NCBI GenBank assembly: GCA_944321945.1
Contig: CALUNE010000012.1
Location: 1 to 64,000, forward strand
Direction of reading: 5' to 3'
DNA length: 64,000 nt
DNA from: an uncultured Alistipes sp.
GTDB taxonomy: Bacteria; Bacteroidota; Bacteroidia; Bacteroidales; Rikenellaceae
Shown here: positions 42,634 to 50,920 of the stretch, piece by piece
Numbering within the stretch: the first letter of the stretch is position 1
Layout of the letters: each line of letters begins with the position of its first letter
Notes under the pieces: generated by a model
Seen by the model: the letters and a program-made list of their open reading frames with translations, nothing else
Told to the model about the DNA's origin: nothing
Database searches by the model: none
Position numbers and translations under genes: made by a program

Positions 42634-43506
42634 TTATGGATGTGCAGGATTCAACAGGCTGATCGCCGCACGCAGGCGCGAATAGTTGCCCGTCAACGAA
42701 TAGTAGTCGGCCGAAACCTCCTCGAAGGCCATGCCCGCCAGCGAACGGGACTGGACCGTTTCGCAAATCTTCGTGGGGGCCGGTTGCGAATTCCCACGCT
42801 CGTCGGCAATCGTTCCCGCCAGCGAAACAAGCGGAAGAATCCGGCCCGGCTCGATGCCGTAGTAGCCCGTCAGGTAGTCCACGCTGCTTTCGACGCCGTA
42901 GATGTCGCTCGAAGCGGTCGCATCGAGCAGGTAGATGTCATACAGTCCGCGGTTCGCGGCTCCCACGAAGGCGGCATTGCCTTCGAAAATCAGCGTCTTG
43001 TCCGTCAGGGTCCCGAGGCGCCGCACGATTTCCGGTTCGACGGCCGAGGCCTCGGCCGTGACGGCCCCCGAATAACGGACCACGACACCGTCCAGGTCGG
43101 ACGACGCGATCTCCTGCAGCGTCGCGTCGAGCCGCTGCAGGGCTGTCGCCGGGTCGGAGCACTCCGCCGTGGCCAGCACCCGCGTATGGCGCTTGCGCAA
43201 CTCGGGAAGATCCTCCCGGTCGAAGTCCGAAAGCGGATTGCGCAGAATCACCGCGTCGAGCGAGTCGGGCAGCGAGCGGATGCAGTCCTTTTCCGATTCG
43301 ATCCGTTCGGGTGCATTGTCAAAGCAGGCGTACGTCAGATAGTGGTCGCCCGCCTTGTAGACCCGGAGCCCCTCGGCGTAGGCCGCCCATTCGGCCGCGT
43401 TCCACGTGTCGAGTGCCCGGACCTGCTGGTCGATCGGCTCGATGCCCGCATCGCAGGCCGCCAGCGCCAGCACCCCCAATATTCCTGTCAGTCGTATGAG
43501 TTTCAT
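42634..43506 (-). CDS. Lipoprotein with degenerate GH18-like fold
   Basis: The 290-residue lipoprotein (Cys18 in LALAAC) has the strand order of a small GH18 barrel: YLTYACFDN, DAVILRNPLSDF, TRVLATAECS, SSDLDGVVVRYSG. The last should be the catalytic DGxDxDxE strand but has Val, Val and Arg in place of the acids, so catalysis is not expected. It probably binds N-glycan at the surface, like BT3985-type proteins. It lies 13 bases below the SusD stop. Confidence 0.75.
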   Translation of the reverse strand: MKLIRLTGILGVLALAACDAGIEPIDQQVRALDTWNAAEWAAYAEGLRVYKAGDHYLTYACFDNAPERIESEKDCIRSLPDSLDAVILRNPLSDFDREDLPELRKRHTRVLATAECSDPATALQRLDATLQEIASSDLDGVVVRYSGAVTAEASAVEPEIVRRLGTLTDKTLIFEGNAAFVGAANRGLYDIYLLDATASSDIYGVESSVDYLTGYYGIEPGRILPLVSLAGTIADERGNSQPAPTKICETVQSRSLAGMAFEEVSADYYSLTGNYSRLRAAISLLNPAHP

Positions 43507-45138: not shown

Positions 45139-48100
45139 TCAGAATTTAATGTTTACGTTGAAACCGATGTTCCGGGTCGAGGGCATCATGAAATAGTCCA
45201 TCCCCGTATAGAAATTCTCGGTCGAGGCGACACTCTCGGGATCGAACGGCGCCTTGCAGTACATCATCCAGAGGTTGCGGCCCACGAGCGACACCGTGAT
45301 GTCGCACACCTTGAGCCACCTGCGCGGAATCGTATAACCCACGGACAGCTCCTGCAGGCGCACGTTCGTCGCGTCGTAGGTATAGTACTGCGGGATGCCG
45401 GCTCCGGCACCGATCGTCGTGTACCACATCTCCGGGTCGACCATCGCCCGGCCGTTAACCAGCACGCCGCCTGCATCGCGCGCCGCAGCCGAGCTCTCCG
45501 AAACCCCGTACAGGTCCAGATTGGCCTGCGTCGCCGAGTAGACCACGCCGCCGATGCGTGCCGCGACGAGGACCCCGAGGTTCACACCCTTCCAGCGGAA
45601 GTCGTTCCGCCACGCCAGGTTCGCCTTCGGAAAGACCGAGCCCAGTTTCATGTCCGGGAGGTTGTTCTCCACGTAGACGTTGCCCGCCTCGTCGATCTCG
45701 ATCCGGCCCTTGTCGTCGCGCCTCAGGTCCGAGTTCGAATAGATGTCGCCCATCGAGCCGCCCTCTTTCAGGATGAAGCGCACCTGCCCGAGTTTGTTGA
45801 TCTCCAGCCGGTCCTTCGAGATGACTTCGCCCGAAAGCGGATTGTACCAGTCGCGCATCAATTCGCGGATCTCGTTGCGGTTGCTCGACACGGTGAGGTT
45901 CGAATTCCAGGTGAAGTCGCGCCACGTGTGCGAATAGCCCAGACTTGCCTCGATACCCGTATTGCGGACGTGTCCCGTCTGCACGTACATGTCGGCATAG
46001 CCCGACGAGGCCGAAACCTGCGGATTGAACGTCTGGTTGTAGGTGTCGGCCAGATACCACGAGAAGGAGAGGTCGAAGCCGTTCAGGAAGCGTGCGTCGA
46101 AGCCCAGTTCCCAGGTCTTCGTCCGTTCGGGGCGCAGTTCGCCGATCGGGTAGTTGGTCTTGTCGTCCCACGTCTGGCCCGTATGGTCGTAGGGGTGGGT
46201 GGCATAGGTCAGCTCACGCGGAAACGGCGTACCCACCGAGGCCCACGACGCCCGGATCTTCAGATAGGGAAAGAGCTCCGGAAAGTCGAAGGTCGCCGAT
46301 GGAAGCCACGAAACGCCCACCGACGGATAGAAGAACGACGACTGCGGCGATCCGGCCAGTTGCGAGGCCCAGTCGTTGCGGCCCGTCACCGTGAGGAAGA
46401 GCTGCGACGCCCAGCCCAGTTCGAGCGATGCGAACAGCGACTGCGTCTGTTCGTGCCACCCCGAGCGCGTCACCTTGCGTTTCGTCGGGTCGATGGCCTC
46501 CGGGTGGAAGATGTTCGACGGCTTCTGCAGCGGACCGTTCAGCTCGAGACCCTGCAGGCGAGTGTCGTTGAGCGAGGCTCCGGCATGCGCCGCCAGCGAA
46601 AAATGCTCGCCGAACGTCTTGTTGATATTGACCATCACGTCGCCGTACGTCTGGCGCGACTTCTCGCTCAGCTCCGTGTAGTGCCCGTACTTGCTCCCTT
46701 CGAGCAGCGTGGAGTTGGTCGTGGCGTAGAGTTTCTGCGTGAACGACCGGTCGGTGTTGTCGATGCGGATACGGCCCGAGACATCCAGCCAGTCGAGGAT
46801 CGAATAGCTGGCCGAGGCCGACAGCAGGTAGCGGTGGCGGTTGTTCTCACGCGGGTTGCGGTAGGCGATCCAGTAGGGGTTCTGCATCTCCAGGTCCCCG
46901 GCGCCCTGCGGCCAGAACTGCGCGTAGATCTTCCGGGCCGGATCCCAGCGCTCGAACGTGCGGACCAGATCGAAATTGTCGCCCCGCGGGAAGAGATAGG
47001 CCGATACCAGCGGGTTCGAATAGACACCCTGGTTGGTCATGTTGCGGTCCTGCTGGATGATGTACGAGGCCGAGGCGTCTAACGTCAGCCGGTCATCGAG
47101 GAAATGCGACGTATTGCGGAACGTGAAGTTGTAACGGTTGTACTCGTTGTTGGGAATCAGTCCGTCGGAATTGACCGCCGCAGCCGAAAAGTAGGTCTGG
47201 TTGCGCTCCGTGCCTCCCGAGACGGTCACGGAATTGGTGTAGACGTGGCCCGTTTCGAGAAAATCCTCCGGCGTGTAGCCGTAGCGGGCACTCTCCGAAA
47301 GGCGCGGGCCCCAGCTGTGGATCTTCGAGCCCGAGGTTTTGCCCTTGCGCCCCGTGCCGTAGCGGTTCTGGAACTCCGGAAGCCAGAGCGGCTCCAGAAA
47401 CTCGATGTTCGTCGAGAGGGTGACCTTCAGTTTCCCGGCTTCGCCGCGTTTGGTGGTGATCAGCACCGCACCGTTTGCGGCCTCCGAACCGTAGAGTGCC
47501 GCGGCGGCAGCTCCCGTCATCACCGACATCGACGCAATGTCGTCCGGGTTCAGATCGGCGATGGACTCCGTGGCGCCCTTCGAGTCGAACTCCATGCCGC
47601 CCTTCGACGAGTTGTTGAACATCGGGATACCGTCAATCACGTACAACGTGTTCGACGACTGCATGATCGACTTCATGCCGCGCATGACAACCTTCGAGAC
47701 GCCGCCTACGCCCGACGACGAGGCGTTGACCACGGCGCCGGCCACCTTGCCCGAAAGGGCATTGATGAAGTTGGCATCCTTGACCGTCGTCAGCTCCTCG
47801 GGGGCAACCTGGGCCACGGTATAGGCCAGAGCCTTCTCGGAACGTTTGATACCCAGAGCCGTGACCACTACGCTTTCGATCTCCGAGGTGGCTTCCTGCA
47901 GGGTGATCTCGAATCGGGTGCGGCTGCCGACCGGCAGCGTCTGGGATTCGCAGCCCAGGTAGCTGAACTCCAGCCGGGCCGTCGCGGGGTTCGGAACGGT
48001 CAGGGCGAAACGCCCCTCGGCATCGGTCGAAACGCCGTTTGTCGTCCCTGCAACCAGCACCGTCGCGCCGATGATCGGACGGTTCGAGGCGTCACGCACC

Positions 48101-48453
48101 ACGCCCGACACCTCGGCGGAAGGGGTCTCCGGACGTTTCGACAGGGTGATGGTCGTTGTCGATTCGATGATCGTATAGGTGTAGGGTGTCGGGGCCAGCA
48201 GGCGGTCGAGCAGCGTGCGGATCGAACTGGATTCGGCTCGCAGGCTCACCCGGTGTTCGAGATTCACCTCCGGACTTGGCACAAAACGATATGCGGACTG
48301 TTGTTCGATGGCCTGTATGGCCTCTTTCAGCGGTGCCGCTTCGAGGTCGAGGCGGATTTCCCGCGTCTGCGCATGTCCCGCAAAGGGCGCCTGCAGCACG
48401 AAAACAAAGAGTGCAAACGCCATAAACGCTTTGATTTGCGCATATTTATTCAT
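45139..48453 (-). CDS. SusC-like TonB-dependent transporter with STN domain
   Basis: The 1104-residue outer-membrane transporter has a signal peptide (about 1-28). An STN domain follows (about 30-105; REIRLDLEAAPLKEAIQAIE), then a carboxypeptidase-regulatory-like domain (about 113-195; VSGVVRDASNRPIIGATVLV), the plug (EELTTVKDANFINALSGKVAG, NTLYVIDGIPMFN) and the 22-stranded barrel ending NIGFNVNIKF. The STN domain signals to the FecR anti-sigma factor, which is encoded just upstream. It imports oligosaccharides, probably high-mannose N-glycans. The predicted antisense RNA lies over its leader. Confidence 0.94.
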   Translation of the reverse strand: MNKYAQIKAFMAFALFVFVLQAPFAGHAQTREIRLDLEAAPLKEAIQAIEQQSAYRFVPSPEVNLEHRVSLRAESSSIRTLLDRLLAPTPYTYTIIESTTTITLSKRPETPSAEVSGVVRDASNRPIIGATVLVAGTTNGVSTDAEGRFALTVPNPATARLEFSYLGCESQTLPVGSRTRFEITLQEATSEIESVVVTALGIKRSEKALAYTVAQVAPEELTTVKDANFINALSGKVAGAVVNASSSGVGGVSKVVMRGMKSIMQSSNTLYVIDGIPMFNNSSKGGMEFDSKGATESIADLNPDDIASMSVMTGAAAAALYGSEAANGAVLITTKRGEAGKLKVTLSTNIEFLEPLWLPEFQNRYGTGRKGKTSGSKIHSWGPRLSESARYGYTPEDFLETGHVYTNSVTVSGGTERNQTYFSAAAVNSDGLIPNNEYNRYNFTFRNTSHFLDDRLTLDASASYIIQQDRNMTNQGVYSNPLVSAYLFPRGDNFDLVRTFERWDPARKIYAQFWPQGAGDLEMQNPYWIAYRNPRENNRHRYLLSASASYSILDWLDVSGRIRIDNTDRSFTQKLYATTNSTLLEGSKYGHYTELSEKSRQTYGDVMVNINKTFGEHFSLAAHAGASLNDTRLQGLELNGPLQKPSNIFHPEAIDPTKRKVTRSGWHEQTQSLFASLELGWASQLFLTVTGRNDWASQLAGSPQSSFFYPSVGVSWLPSATFDFPELFPYLKIRASWASVGTPFPRELTYATHPYDHTGQTWDDKTNYPIGELRPERTKTWELGFDARFLNGFDLSFSWYLADTYNQTFNPQVSASSGYADMYVQTGHVRNTGIEASLGYSHTWRDFTWNSNLTVSSNRNEIRELMRDWYNPLSGEVISKDRLEINKLGQVRFILKEGGSMGDIYSNSDLRRDDKGRIEIDEAGNVYVENNLPDMKLGSVFPKANLAWRNDFRWKGVNLGVLVAARIGGVVYSATQANLDLYGVSESSAAARDAGGVLVNGRAMVDPEMWYTTIGAGAGIPQYYTYDATNVRLQELSVGYTIPRRWLKVCDITVSLVGRNLWMMYCKAPFDPESVASTENFYTGMDYFMMPSTRNIGFNVNIKF

Positions 48454-48460
48454 ACTTTTG
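48430..48460 (+). promoter_or_regulatory. Promoter of the predicted antisense RNA
   Basis: TTTG (48430-48433), 19 bases, TACTTTTG (48453-48460) match the Bacteroidetes consensus exactly, on the strand opposite susC and across its start codon. Confidence 0.7.
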
Positions 48461-48466
48461 TGAATT

Positions 48467-48544
48467 AAGGTTTAGGTTACTTCGATGAATAGCTTGAACC
48501 CGGGTCTGCGGAGTGCGCTACCACTGCTGCAGACCTCTTTTTTA
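48467..48544 (+). ncRNA. Predicted cis-antisense small RNA at the SusC leader (DonS-like)
   Basis: A consensus promoter (48430-48460) and an intrinsic terminator (arms 48503-48509 and 48529-48535, inner stem 48512-48515 with 48522-48525, then TCTTTTTT) frame an RNA of about 78 bases. It is antisense to the 5' leader of the SusC-like gene, 14-91 bases before its start codon. Small RNAs of the DonS family occupy this place, between anti-sigma gene and susC, in Bacteroides glycan loci and repress them. No expression evidence is available here. Confidence 0.65.
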
Positions 48545-48639
48545 TATACGGGGGTTCAAAATACCGTTTCAGGTCGTACAAGGGGAAAGGGATCGGATTA
48601 TCTCATAGGCAGGTCGGTTTTCTGGGTTGGATGCATCGT

Positions 48640-49602
48640 TTATCGGTTGCGCACGACGATCGTACGCTGTTCGGGGTCGAATTCGTAGGTGATGGGGTAG
48701 ATCGTCTGCAGGACCTTCATGGCGTTGTCCACGCCGTCCTGGATGTGGATCTTGCCCCACTGGAACTTCGTTTCGGGGATCGTTACCTCCTCCAGCCGGA
48801 TCTTCACACCGTAGACCTGCCGGTAGCGGTCGATGATTTCGCGGAAGGTGTGGCCCCGGAAGTTGATATACCCTTCGGTCCAGAGGTAGTCGTCCGAGTT
48901 CTCGATTCTTCCGACGGCCAGGTGTGAGCCTTCGAGGCGCACCGTCTCGTTGGGGCGGAGCCGGACGGTCTGGTCGGTTTGGCGGTTGCGGACCTCGACG
49001 CTTCCTTCGAACAGGGCTGTCGAGAAACTCCCGCGCTCGCGGCTGGCCGCCACGTCGAACTCCGTGCCCAGCACCCGCACGTCACAGGTGTGGGTCTCCA
49101 CGACAAACGGGCGGTCGACATCGTGCGTCACATCGAAACGGGCTTCGCCGTCGATCCGTACGCGGCGCTCGGCGGCGGCAAAGAGCGCCGGGTATTCGAG
49201 CCGGGTTCCGGCGTTGAGCCACACCTCGGTGCCGTCCGGGAGCGAGATCCGCAGATGCTGCCCGGCGGGAACATCCAGGGTGATATTCCGGGCGCCGAGG
49301 CGTTCGAGCATCCGGCTTTGGTGGTAGTAGTAGCCCCCGAAGAGGAGGAGGGATACCGCGGCAGCGGCCGAAAGTCCGGCCACGGCCCAGCGGCGCACCA
49401 AGCGGCGGACGTTGTTTTTCCGGTCGCGGTCGTAGAGTTCGTTGATGAGCGGGGCGCTCAGGGCGGCCAGATCGTGACGACGATGGACCTTTGCGAGCAG
49501 GCGTTCGTGTTCCGGGTCGGCATTCAACCAGGCAAGGATCTCCTGCTCCTCTTCCGGGGTGGTTTGGCAGCAGACGTAGCGATATAAGAATTCTTCAGTC
49601 AT
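48640..49602 (-). CDS. FecR-like anti-sigma factor
   Basis: The 320-residue inner-membrane protein has an N-terminal sigma-binding helical part (about 1-70), one membrane helix (AVAGLSAAAAVSLLLFGGYYY, about 84-104) and a periplasmic FecR domain (about 110-225; LPDGTEVWLNAGTRLEYP, GEARFDVTHD). A C-terminal DUF4974 domain follows (about 245-318; FREIIDRYRQVYGVKI). It holds the neighbouring sigma factor until the STN domain of SusC reports substrate. Confidence 0.93.
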   Translation of the reverse strand: MTEEFLYRYVCCQTTPEEEQEILAWLNADPEHERLLAKVHRRHDLAALSAPLINELYDRDRKNNVRRLVRRWAVAGLSAAAAVSLLLFGGYYYHQSRMLERLGARNITLDVPAGQHLRISLPDGTEVWLNAGTRLEYPALFAAAERRVRIDGEARFDVTHDVDRPFVVETHTCDVRVLGTEFDVAASRERGSFSTALFEGSVEVRNRQTDQTVRLRPNETVRLEGSHLAVGRIENSDDYLWTEGYINFRGHTFREIIDRYRQVYGVKIRLEEVTIPETKFQWGKIHIQDGVDNAMKVLQTIYPITYEFDPEQRTIVVRNR

Positions 49603-50067
49603 TTTTTTTCGGCTTGTTTCATTATATTATCACTTGAGCGGGGCAAAATCGTGAAAAATCCGACCGCCGGATGCAAATAAATATCTTTACGAATTTCTTC
49701 AGATTTTTCACGAATGTAAAACGGATAAAATCAGTATGTTGCTTATCCGATAGGTTTCGGGCGAGACGTGGCGGCGGGGAGAAAAAACGGACGGGCAGCG
49801 GCCGTATGACAGTGACGGTTTCGGGTGGAACGGGCGGCGGAGCCGGTTCGGACCGGACGAGGATGATCGGTGCTCCGGGTGGGGCCGCTGGCGGAGACGG
49901 TGGGGCGACAGGGCAAGGCTGAGGAGCGAGAAGACGAGGCGGTGGCGGCAGGACGAGGTTGAGGGGCGAGAGGGGCGAGAGGGGCGAGAGGGGCGAGAGG
50001 CCGAGGCGGCGGGAGTGGCGGGATGAGACTGCGAAGCCGGAGAGAGGCCGGCGGCGGAATCAAGGAT
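49603..50067. other. Gap between FecR and sigma genes
   Basis: 465 bases: AT-rich near FecR, then GC-rich degenerate repeats up to the sigma stop. No gene is supported. Confidence 0.45.
49956..50001. repeat. Tandem GAGGGGCGA repeat
   Basis: Four to five direct copies of a 9-base unit lie just downstream of the sigma gene stop. Short tandem repeats of this kind can vary in number by slippage. Confidence 0.7.
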
Positions 50068-50643
50068 TCACAGGAAGGGGATGAGCCATGCGGCCATAGG
50101 AAGATAGTCCTTCAAGGCTACCCGGAGCATCCTCTTTGCGGCCCGGATTTCGTAGTCCACCTGGCTCTCCGTGAGCGAACAGATTGCCGCAATCTCCCGG
50201 TAGGACATCTCCTCATAGCGGTAGGCAATGAAGACCCGACGTCGTACCGGCGACATCCGCAACAGCTCCTGCTCGATGATATGCAGCGCCTCGTCCAGCA
50301 ACAGTTTTTTGGGATCGTCGGCCGTCTGTCGCAGCACGTAGTCCGAGAGGATGCGCAACTCCGTCCGCTGGAGGTTGTCGTGAGCCCGCAGGTGTTGCTG
50401 ACGGTCCCGAAGCCAGTTGCGGCACTTGTTGATGATCACCGTGTAGATATAGGCCGGGATGTTCCGCTCGTCGAGGTCGCGACGATTCTCCCAGAAAACC
50501 ACAAAGCTGTCGGTCACGATATCTTCGGCCGCCATCCGGTCACGCACGTACGAGAGGGCGATCCGCACGAAATAGGTCTTGTATTTCGCGTAGATCTCCT
50601 CGAAGCCGTGGGGCAAAGCGATGGTTTTCGGCTGCTTTTCCAT
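50068..50643 (-). CDS. ECF sigma factor
   Basis: The 191-residue sigma factor has region 2 (about 12-80; FEEIYAKYKTYFVRIALSYV, AAEDIVTDSFVVFWENR) and region 4 (about 115-180; LLRMSPVRRRVFIAYRYEEM and SYREIAAICSLTESQVDY). It is of the Bacteroidetes SusC-linked ECF type. The start at 50643 (MEKQPKTIAL) is used because the longer frame has a non-conserved N-terminus. It should direct transcription of the susC operon once FecR lets it go. Confidence 0.93.
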   Translation of the reverse strand: MEKQPKTIALPHGFEEIYAKYKTYFVRIALSYVRDRMAAEDIVTDSFVVFWENRRDLDERNIPAYIYTVIINKCRNWLRDRQQHLRAHDNLQRTELRILSDYVLRQTADDPKKLLLDEALHIIEQELLRMSPVRRRVFIAYRYEEMSYREIAAICSLTESQVDYEIRAAKRMLRVALKDYLPMAAWLIPFL

Positions 50644-50920
50644 ATCGGTCCGCTCTCCAACAAGAGGTAAAGATAGTATTTTTCGGATGGGATGACAAAT
50701 TTTCGGACCCGGATTTACCATCGGCAGCGCGTTCGGCCCCGCCTTCGCCAGCGGCACCTTAACGTCCGGACTGGCCATGGTTGTAGGGGATTCTGTCTGG
50801 CGGCAGAGGCTCCGCATGGTGGGGATATGTCGATGCAAGGCGTTGTTGGAGAATGTCTTGCGTGTAAATCGCAATCTGTCTTCGGCCCGGGCGGAACGGG
50901 TCGCTATTTGGCCTCGGACA

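Follow-up and report, generated by a model that had tools for sequence, protein, structure and literature searches.

What could be the use of a promoter that lies on the start codon of a SusC gene and points away from it? The question is raised by a predicted antisense RNA gene in the window, the stretch of 64,000 nucleotides analysed here. Its presumed target is a SusC/RagA TonB-dependent receptor gene on the minus strand (45139-48453), which encodes carboxypeptidase-like and plug domains and, at the N-terminus, an STN-like stretch that scores 25.0 bits, under the Pfam cut-off of 28.4. Upstream on the same strand are genes for a FecR-type anti-sigma factor (48640-49602) and an ECF sigma factor (50068-50874, domains at residues 90-254), the real start of which is probably internal to this ORF. 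Between these two lies a perfect 9-bp tandem repeat of GAGGGGCGA (4.4 copies, 49961-50000). Downstream of SusC, the minus strand encodes a SusD-like lipoprotein (PF12741, 43520-45133) and a GH18 BT1044-like protein (42634-43506), with BT_3987-like and GH18 proteins further along the locus. Judged by these families, the set of ECF sigma factor, FecR, SusC, SusD and GH18-type genes fits an N-glycan polysaccharide utilization locus (PUL), that is, a PUL for host (mucosal) glycans with an ECF sigma/FecR pair as in DonS-type systems. The closest named match to the SusC protein was that of Alistipes locus L215 (58% identity), in a search that may omit near records, which makes Alistipes the probable host.

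The promoter itself is a plain match on the plus strand. Its -33 element TTTG (48430-48433) falls within SusC codons 7-8, and its -7 element TACTTTTG (48453-48460) begins with a T that pairs with the A of the SusC ATG. With the 19-nt spacer between them, the two match exactly the sigma-ABfr consensus, described in PMC7366714 as TTTG near -33 and TAnnTTTG at -7. A second TTTG (48435-48438) would leave a spacer of 14 nt. The RNA therefore has, by its sequence, a predicted sigma-ABfr-type promoter of its own, as expected of a DonS-type RNA. The original prediction had described a consensus promoter with ideal spacing, a terminator 43 bases past it and a position antisense to the SusC leader between the FecR and SusC genes. 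All of this held: the exact TTTG-N19-TAnnTTTG occupies 48430-48460, a hairpin begins at 48503, 43 nt after the -7 box, and the gene coordinates confirm the placement. Such a promoter by itself is common in the draft genome, where exact -33/-7 pairs with spacers of 18-22 nt occur 135 times, versus 22 times for the reversed pattern; what is rare is its location. It was invisible to the program's promoter scan of 47000-50000 because that scan looks for sigma-70 promoters. The scan of the same interval also listed no terminator of any kind, which we attribute to a bulge in the stem.

Started at this promoter, the predicted RNA would cover 48465-48543 of the plus strand and measure 75-80 nt, its 5′ end being placed from the promoter to within about 4 nt. 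As in DonS-type systems, it would run divergently from the minus-strand SusC gene and antisense to its 5′ end; it is complementary to the leader from about -12 to -91 relative to the ATG and ends short of the start codon. Sequence, folding and covariation all point to an intrinsic terminator at 48503-48543 (plus strand), GGTCTGCGGAGTG-CGCTAC-CACTGCTGCAGACC then TCTTTTTT, with hairpin arms GGTCTGC...GCAGACC and a T-run that ends at 48543. When 80 nt of the predicted RNA are folded, two hairpins form (-33.5 kcal/mol, z -5.0); the complementary strand gives a weaker fold (z -2.2). A coding role was rejected: the sole internal ATG, at about 48485, opens a frame that reads through the terminator and is lost in 2/4 orthologues. 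The 5′ bases of the predicted RNAs (TGAATTAAGGTT and its relatives, alignment columns 1-13) are better conserved than the stretch before the terminator.

Our preferred answer, which we hold to be probable, is that an antisense RNA of about 78 nt is made here and holds down susC and its PUL until the ECF sigma/FecR pair drives sense transcription. The housekeeping (sigma-ABfr) promoter in the first 24 nt of susC would fire away from the gene, and its structured product, ended by the intrinsic terminator, would pair with the leader between roughly positions -12 and -91 relative to the start codon. This pairing would damp basal expression of susC and the PUL, and strong sense transcription driven by the ECF sigma/FecR pair would override it. 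Directly supported are the promoter and terminator sequences, their conserved position and the covariation of the stem. We infer three further points, namely synthesis of the RNA, its pairing with the leader and its repressive effect, assuming that the susC transcript and the antisense RNA overlap; the label 'repressor' is carried over by analogy from Bacteroides fragilis. The case for the RNA is a case from sequence, and it rests on register, terminator and covariation.

Register was assessed in four sets of SusC leaders. The genus set comprised 60 leaders selected by eye among the matches listed for 101 genomes, with starts found for 59 (including L117 and L155); L144 was left out and L122 had too little upstream sequence. 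An order set of 32 leaders (20 regions and 12 loci) came from a 247-genome sample, and a named set held 43/80 loci, those matched from query residue 44 or earlier. The fourth set was the best 30 of 112 profile matches in genome G425, which we take to be B. fragilis NCTC 9343. SusC start codons were set by a signal-peptide rule, which can err, and exact duplicate leaders were removed before the counts of register, terminators, mini-ORFs and -33/codon 8. Among the resulting 159 distinct leaders, 65 carried a perfect -7 box at the register seen in the window, versus 23 over the other 252 positions together and at most 3 at any one of these. By group, the register was found in 30/59 genus leaders, 8/31 from other members of the order, 14/40 named and 13/29 from B. 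fragilis. Counts across paralogues are non-independent, and the sole correction is single-linkage clustering of 172 N-termini at 40% identity, which gave 62 clusters, 21 of them with at least one exact box; 47 of the boxes fall in one cluster of 61 N-termini. The register is not a chance match, and the sequence comparison indicates that it very probably marks a real switch of a known type.

The arrangement reaches well beyond Bacteroides, because the exact box was present in 15/43 named loci and the carriers that also have a terminator include Bacteroides propionicigenes, B. ihuae, Chitinophaga silvisoli and members of Sinomicrobium, Flaviramulus, Mariniphaga, Parapedobacter and Pedobacter. 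These loci were selected by similarity to the SusC of the window, and therefore no phylum-wide frequency follows. In G425, 13 of the best 30 SusC leaders had the exact -7 box in register and one more had five of the six letters. All 14 were linked to FecR; for the 13 exact boxes, a terminator was found in 12 and a complete -33 element in none (best 3/4 letters).

The source genome offers an internal comparison. Its 2.23-Mb draft (24 contigs, 77.65% complete) contains 42 plug-domain genes; in 10 of them the plug is preceded by 200 residues or more. The exact -7 box sat on the start codon in six of these 10 long-N-terminus SusC genes versus 0/32 others, and the six had TTTG (five genes) or GTTG (one gene) at a distance of 19-20 nt inside the gene. 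Five further loci of this genome thus share both boxes with the window (one with GTTG for TTTG), and four of them have a clear terminator; one of the six, L050, was first met as a 28-base DNA match to the window. The leader of L046, in this genome, and that of L136 have exact antisense boxes and a strong hairpin with no T-run; their RNAs may end by another mechanism. It had also been claimed that the galactan locus lacks an equivalent, and its SusC gene (L047, 58193-61231) indeed showed no antisense box from -250 to +120 of the chosen start. The claim that the RNA belongs to the N-glycan locus fared less evenly: the neighbouring genes do fit such a PUL, but the RNA goes with FecR-linked SusC genes as a class and is no specific sign of the N-glycan locus.

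Within the genus, the promoter appears to leave a trace in the protein. With a 20-nt spacer, the -33 TTTG corresponds on the sense strand to a CAA codon at position 8 plus the A of codon 9. A complete -33 box was found in 23/30 box-positive genus leaders versus 0/22 with a poor box, and codon 8 was CAA in 22/30 of the former, versus glutamine in 0/22 of the latter. In an earlier, wider set, which omitted 16 leaders with 5/6 letters and five box-positive ones without a terminator, codon 8 was CAA in 25/40 box-positive leaders (every one of the 25 glutamines being CAA), versus glutamine in 0/39 comparison leaders; in seven more of the 40 it was AAA, each with a 19-nt spacer like that of the window. 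As the codon for glutamine elsewhere in the SusC genes of this genome, CAG outnumbers CAA by 987 to 57. The CAA bias alone is weak because within codons 1-14 of the other SusC genes CAG occurs five times and CAA seven times; the strong evidence is the codon position. Glutamine 8 of the SusC signal peptide, in this genus, thus appears to track the -33 box rather than an evident need of the protein. A signal-peptide amino acid would seemingly be fixed by an antisense promoter, not by the protein, and a single synonymous change in codons 7-9 can destroy the -33 box and leave the protein unchanged. The first 60 nt of susC are identical in five orthologues, and over the 180 nt that follow 17/60 third positions vary.

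A phylum-wide constraint on codon 8 was considered and rejected, since outside the genus glutamine 8 was found in 5/35 box-positive and 3/48 poor-box leaders. A complete -33 box was likewise present in 0/13 B. fragilis, 0/8 other-order and 4/14 named box-positive leaders, with no clear gain in box-positive over box-negative leaders outside the genus. In Flavobacterium johnsoniae, too, a -33 motif could not be identified, according to PMC7366714.

The terminators follow the box closely. Defined as an antisense hairpin followed by T's, with dG at most -12, a terminator was present in 59/65 box-positive leaders, 16/24 with five of six letters and 7/70 with at most four (Fisher 4e-23 for six versus at most four letters, a figure that ignores relatedness). 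It was found in 1/32 other SusC genes of this genome, and a sense-strand control gave 0/65 among the box-positive leaders. In a wider count, 7/73 box-positive leaders lacked a terminator by this criterion, L046 among them. Covariation was examined in 23 genus RNAs picked for similar spacing (L215 was prepared and not aligned). The seven outer stem pairs were 97.5% standard and five of the seven changed on both sides; 0/500 shuffles scored as high and slid controls were 33-47% paired. A terminator of the TATCCGGA...TCCGGATA type lies 80-128 nt upstream of SusC at L166, L167, L198, L202, L217, L248 and L325; within this subgroup the exact register box occurs only in L325, and antisense transcription of the other members may start elsewhere.

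Is the RNA itself the active agent? A polymerase that starts on the susC start codon could instead collide with sense transcription or occlude it, the RNA being a by-product. This is a serious rival because the register, not the length of the RNA, is the most constant feature: the box is locked to the start codon while the hairpin follows it at anything between 39 and 88 nt, and outside its 5′ end and stem the RNA shows little conservation among paralogues. Yet nothing outside the stem is conserved better than that 5′ end, and the stem is maintained by covariation, although interference would need a terminator too. The apex of the terminator also argues for an RNA-based function. TG-N5-7-CA, a motif chosen after looking at the set, is found in 24/52 distinct apices versus 3/48 other terminators in loci of the same genome, and a protein might bind there or the loop might pair with another loop. 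Apices of this form recur in several families, for example at 48514-48525 of the window. Overall, interference as the main mode of action strikes us as rather unlikely.

A second alternative grants the RNA a function and reverses its sign or its reach: it could act positively by stabilizing the susC mRNA, or in trans in the manner of FopS. Some antisense RNA-PUL pairs of Bacteroides thetaiotaomicron are reported as positively correlated (PMC10994844), and FopS sRNAs (4/14 antisense RNAs) as binding susC start regions in trans (PMC11697453); the terminator apex and the 5′ end could be shared contact points for such action. Set against this, the B. fragilis member that was tested represses its PUL, according to PMC7366714 and PMC11697453. 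At gathering thresholds, moreover, Rfam gave no family match in the window or in 19 related loci, from a copy that possibly lacks a FopS model; relaxing the limit to E 5 added a single snoRNA hit (E 1.2, minus strand of 48350-48700), which we take for chance. Positive or trans action is accordingly given a small place, and we regard it as improbable.

More radically, there might be no antisense RNA; the box would then be an A-rich context for the start of susC translation and the hairpin a structure of the mRNA leader. Bacteroidota start sites do favour A at -3, -6 and -11 to -15 (PMC7366714), and the sense strand of the box places A at -6 to -4. Such a context leaves unexplained the C at -7, the T at -1 and, in the genus, the -33 TTTG with its CAA codon 8; it is also at odds with the absence of the box from the 32 other SusC genes of the genome and with T-run hairpins that favour the antisense strand so completely. 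We consider it very improbable. A chance match to a loose consensus, for which the abundance of exact pairs in the draft might speak, is hardly credible in the face of the register, terminator and clustering statistics.

The SusC leader holds one more conserved feature. In the window, a mini-ORF, ATG AGA TAA (48598-48606, minus strand), preceded by GCCT and an AAA, is invariant in four orthologues. The pattern AAA-N8-GCC(T/C)ATG recurs in many leaders, upstream of the region to which the antisense RNA is complementary; at 61/67 GCC(T/C)ATG sites the reading frame closes within six codons, each of the three stop codons being represented. The control frames of the same 67 sites gave 8/67 (+2) and 52/67 (+1), the latter because ATGA contains TGA. 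Where a box-positive leader has the GCC motif, a mini-ORF of at most three codons occurred in 28/38 cases (shuffles: mean 8.9, maximum 16), and where it lacks the motif, in 16/27 (mean 8.4, maximum 16, so that some shuffle equals the observed count). There was no excess in leaders without an exact box (26/94, shuffle mean 20.8) or in the other SusC genes of the genome (3/32, mean 3.4). The site lies 120-164 nt upstream of SusC in 35/36 box-positive leaders that have one, and 85-95 nt upstream in 5/10 such poor-box leaders. As a -10 element of the susC promoter, GCCTATG was rejected: nothing is conserved at -35 spacing, and an in-frame stop follows the ATG. A candidate ECF promoter of susC in the window, TGAAAC-N15-CGTATA, differs in spacing in the G013 orthologue. 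As for what the mini-ORF does, ribosome loading or coupling to susC are our guesses. In plasmid R1, the antisense RNA CopA acts against the CopT leader, which contains the tap leader peptide coupled to repA. The likeness, an antisense RNA opposed to a leader with a small upstream reading frame, is a resemblance only, and the mini-ORF here differs in its 1-6 codons and in lying upstream of the antisense target.

These elements may form a composite leader across Bacteroidota, in which an antisense promoter on the start codon, a terminator whose apex recurs and a mini-ORF of 1-6 codons act as one switch for FecR-linked TonB receptors. We offer this tentatively, with a confidence somewhat short of even. 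If true, sense expression and antisense initiation would exclude each other and, in the genus of the window, the -33 box would also dictate signal-peptide residues 7-9. With a fixed register, such RNAs would become predictable from DNA across many Bacteroidota. Two findings are possibly new, the upstream mini-ORF and, outside Bacteroides, the register on the start codon: no published statement of either was found in a partial view of the literature, outside which lies Cao et al. 2016, and no paper came up in a full-text search that combined Alistipes, antisense RNA and polysaccharide utilization loci.

Known RNAs of Bacteroides provide the closest parallels. The FopS/GibS sRNAs of B. thetaiotaomicron resemble the predicted RNA in having a short 5′ stretch and a terminator hairpin, and they act on susC start regions, including that of a high-mannose N-glycan PUL (PMC11697453). 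As described there, FopS acts in trans by a shared seed and is bound by RbpB; the RNA predicted here, in contrast, is complementary over its whole length to the gene next to it. The Bacteroides cis-antisense RNAs that accompany PULs, DonS among them, go back to Cao et al. 2016 (cited via PMC7366714, PMC10994844, PMC11697453 and PMC9723704). Family members measure 78-128 nt (PMC7366714), and 15 PULs of B. fragilis are reported to have such an RNA (PMC9723704). In that species DonS acts as a repressor of its PUL (PMC7366714, PMC11697453), by a mechanism that PMC11697453 states to be unknown. For B. thetaiotaomicron, 32 antisense RNAs are reported, and correlations for RNAs other than DonS are both negative and positive (PMC10994844, PMC7366714, PMC11697453); in B. 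thetaiotaomicron five in DonS-like orientation were confirmed by Northern blot, some of them anti-correlated with susC (PMC7366714), and two more were confirmed later (PMC10994844).

DonS and the RNA predicted here are both cis-antisense to the susC leader of an apparent N-glycan PUL, divergent, ended by a terminator and located between FecR and SusC, with a sigma-ABfr-type -7 box on the start codon; the primary sequence differs. The 75-80 nt predicted here, counted from a predicted 5′ end, straddle the lower limit of the published lengths. L325, which we take for donC by a GH18 gene about 5 kb downstream, is among the 13 box-positive leaders of G425 and has a weak -33 element and a TATCCGGA-type terminator 88-122 nt upstream of the ATG. 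The 13/30 register leaders of that genome compare with the 15 published PULs, the loci being not matched one to one and the -33 element being different. Because the -33 element of B. fragilis is weak, it is register, terminator and gene order that carry the likeness. The DonS-type comparison drawn in the original prediction is thus supported by position between FecR and SusC, divergence, promoter, terminator and the -7 register shared with G425, and the best reading of the sequence is that the predicted RNA belongs to the known PUL-associated, DonS-type antisense RNAs.
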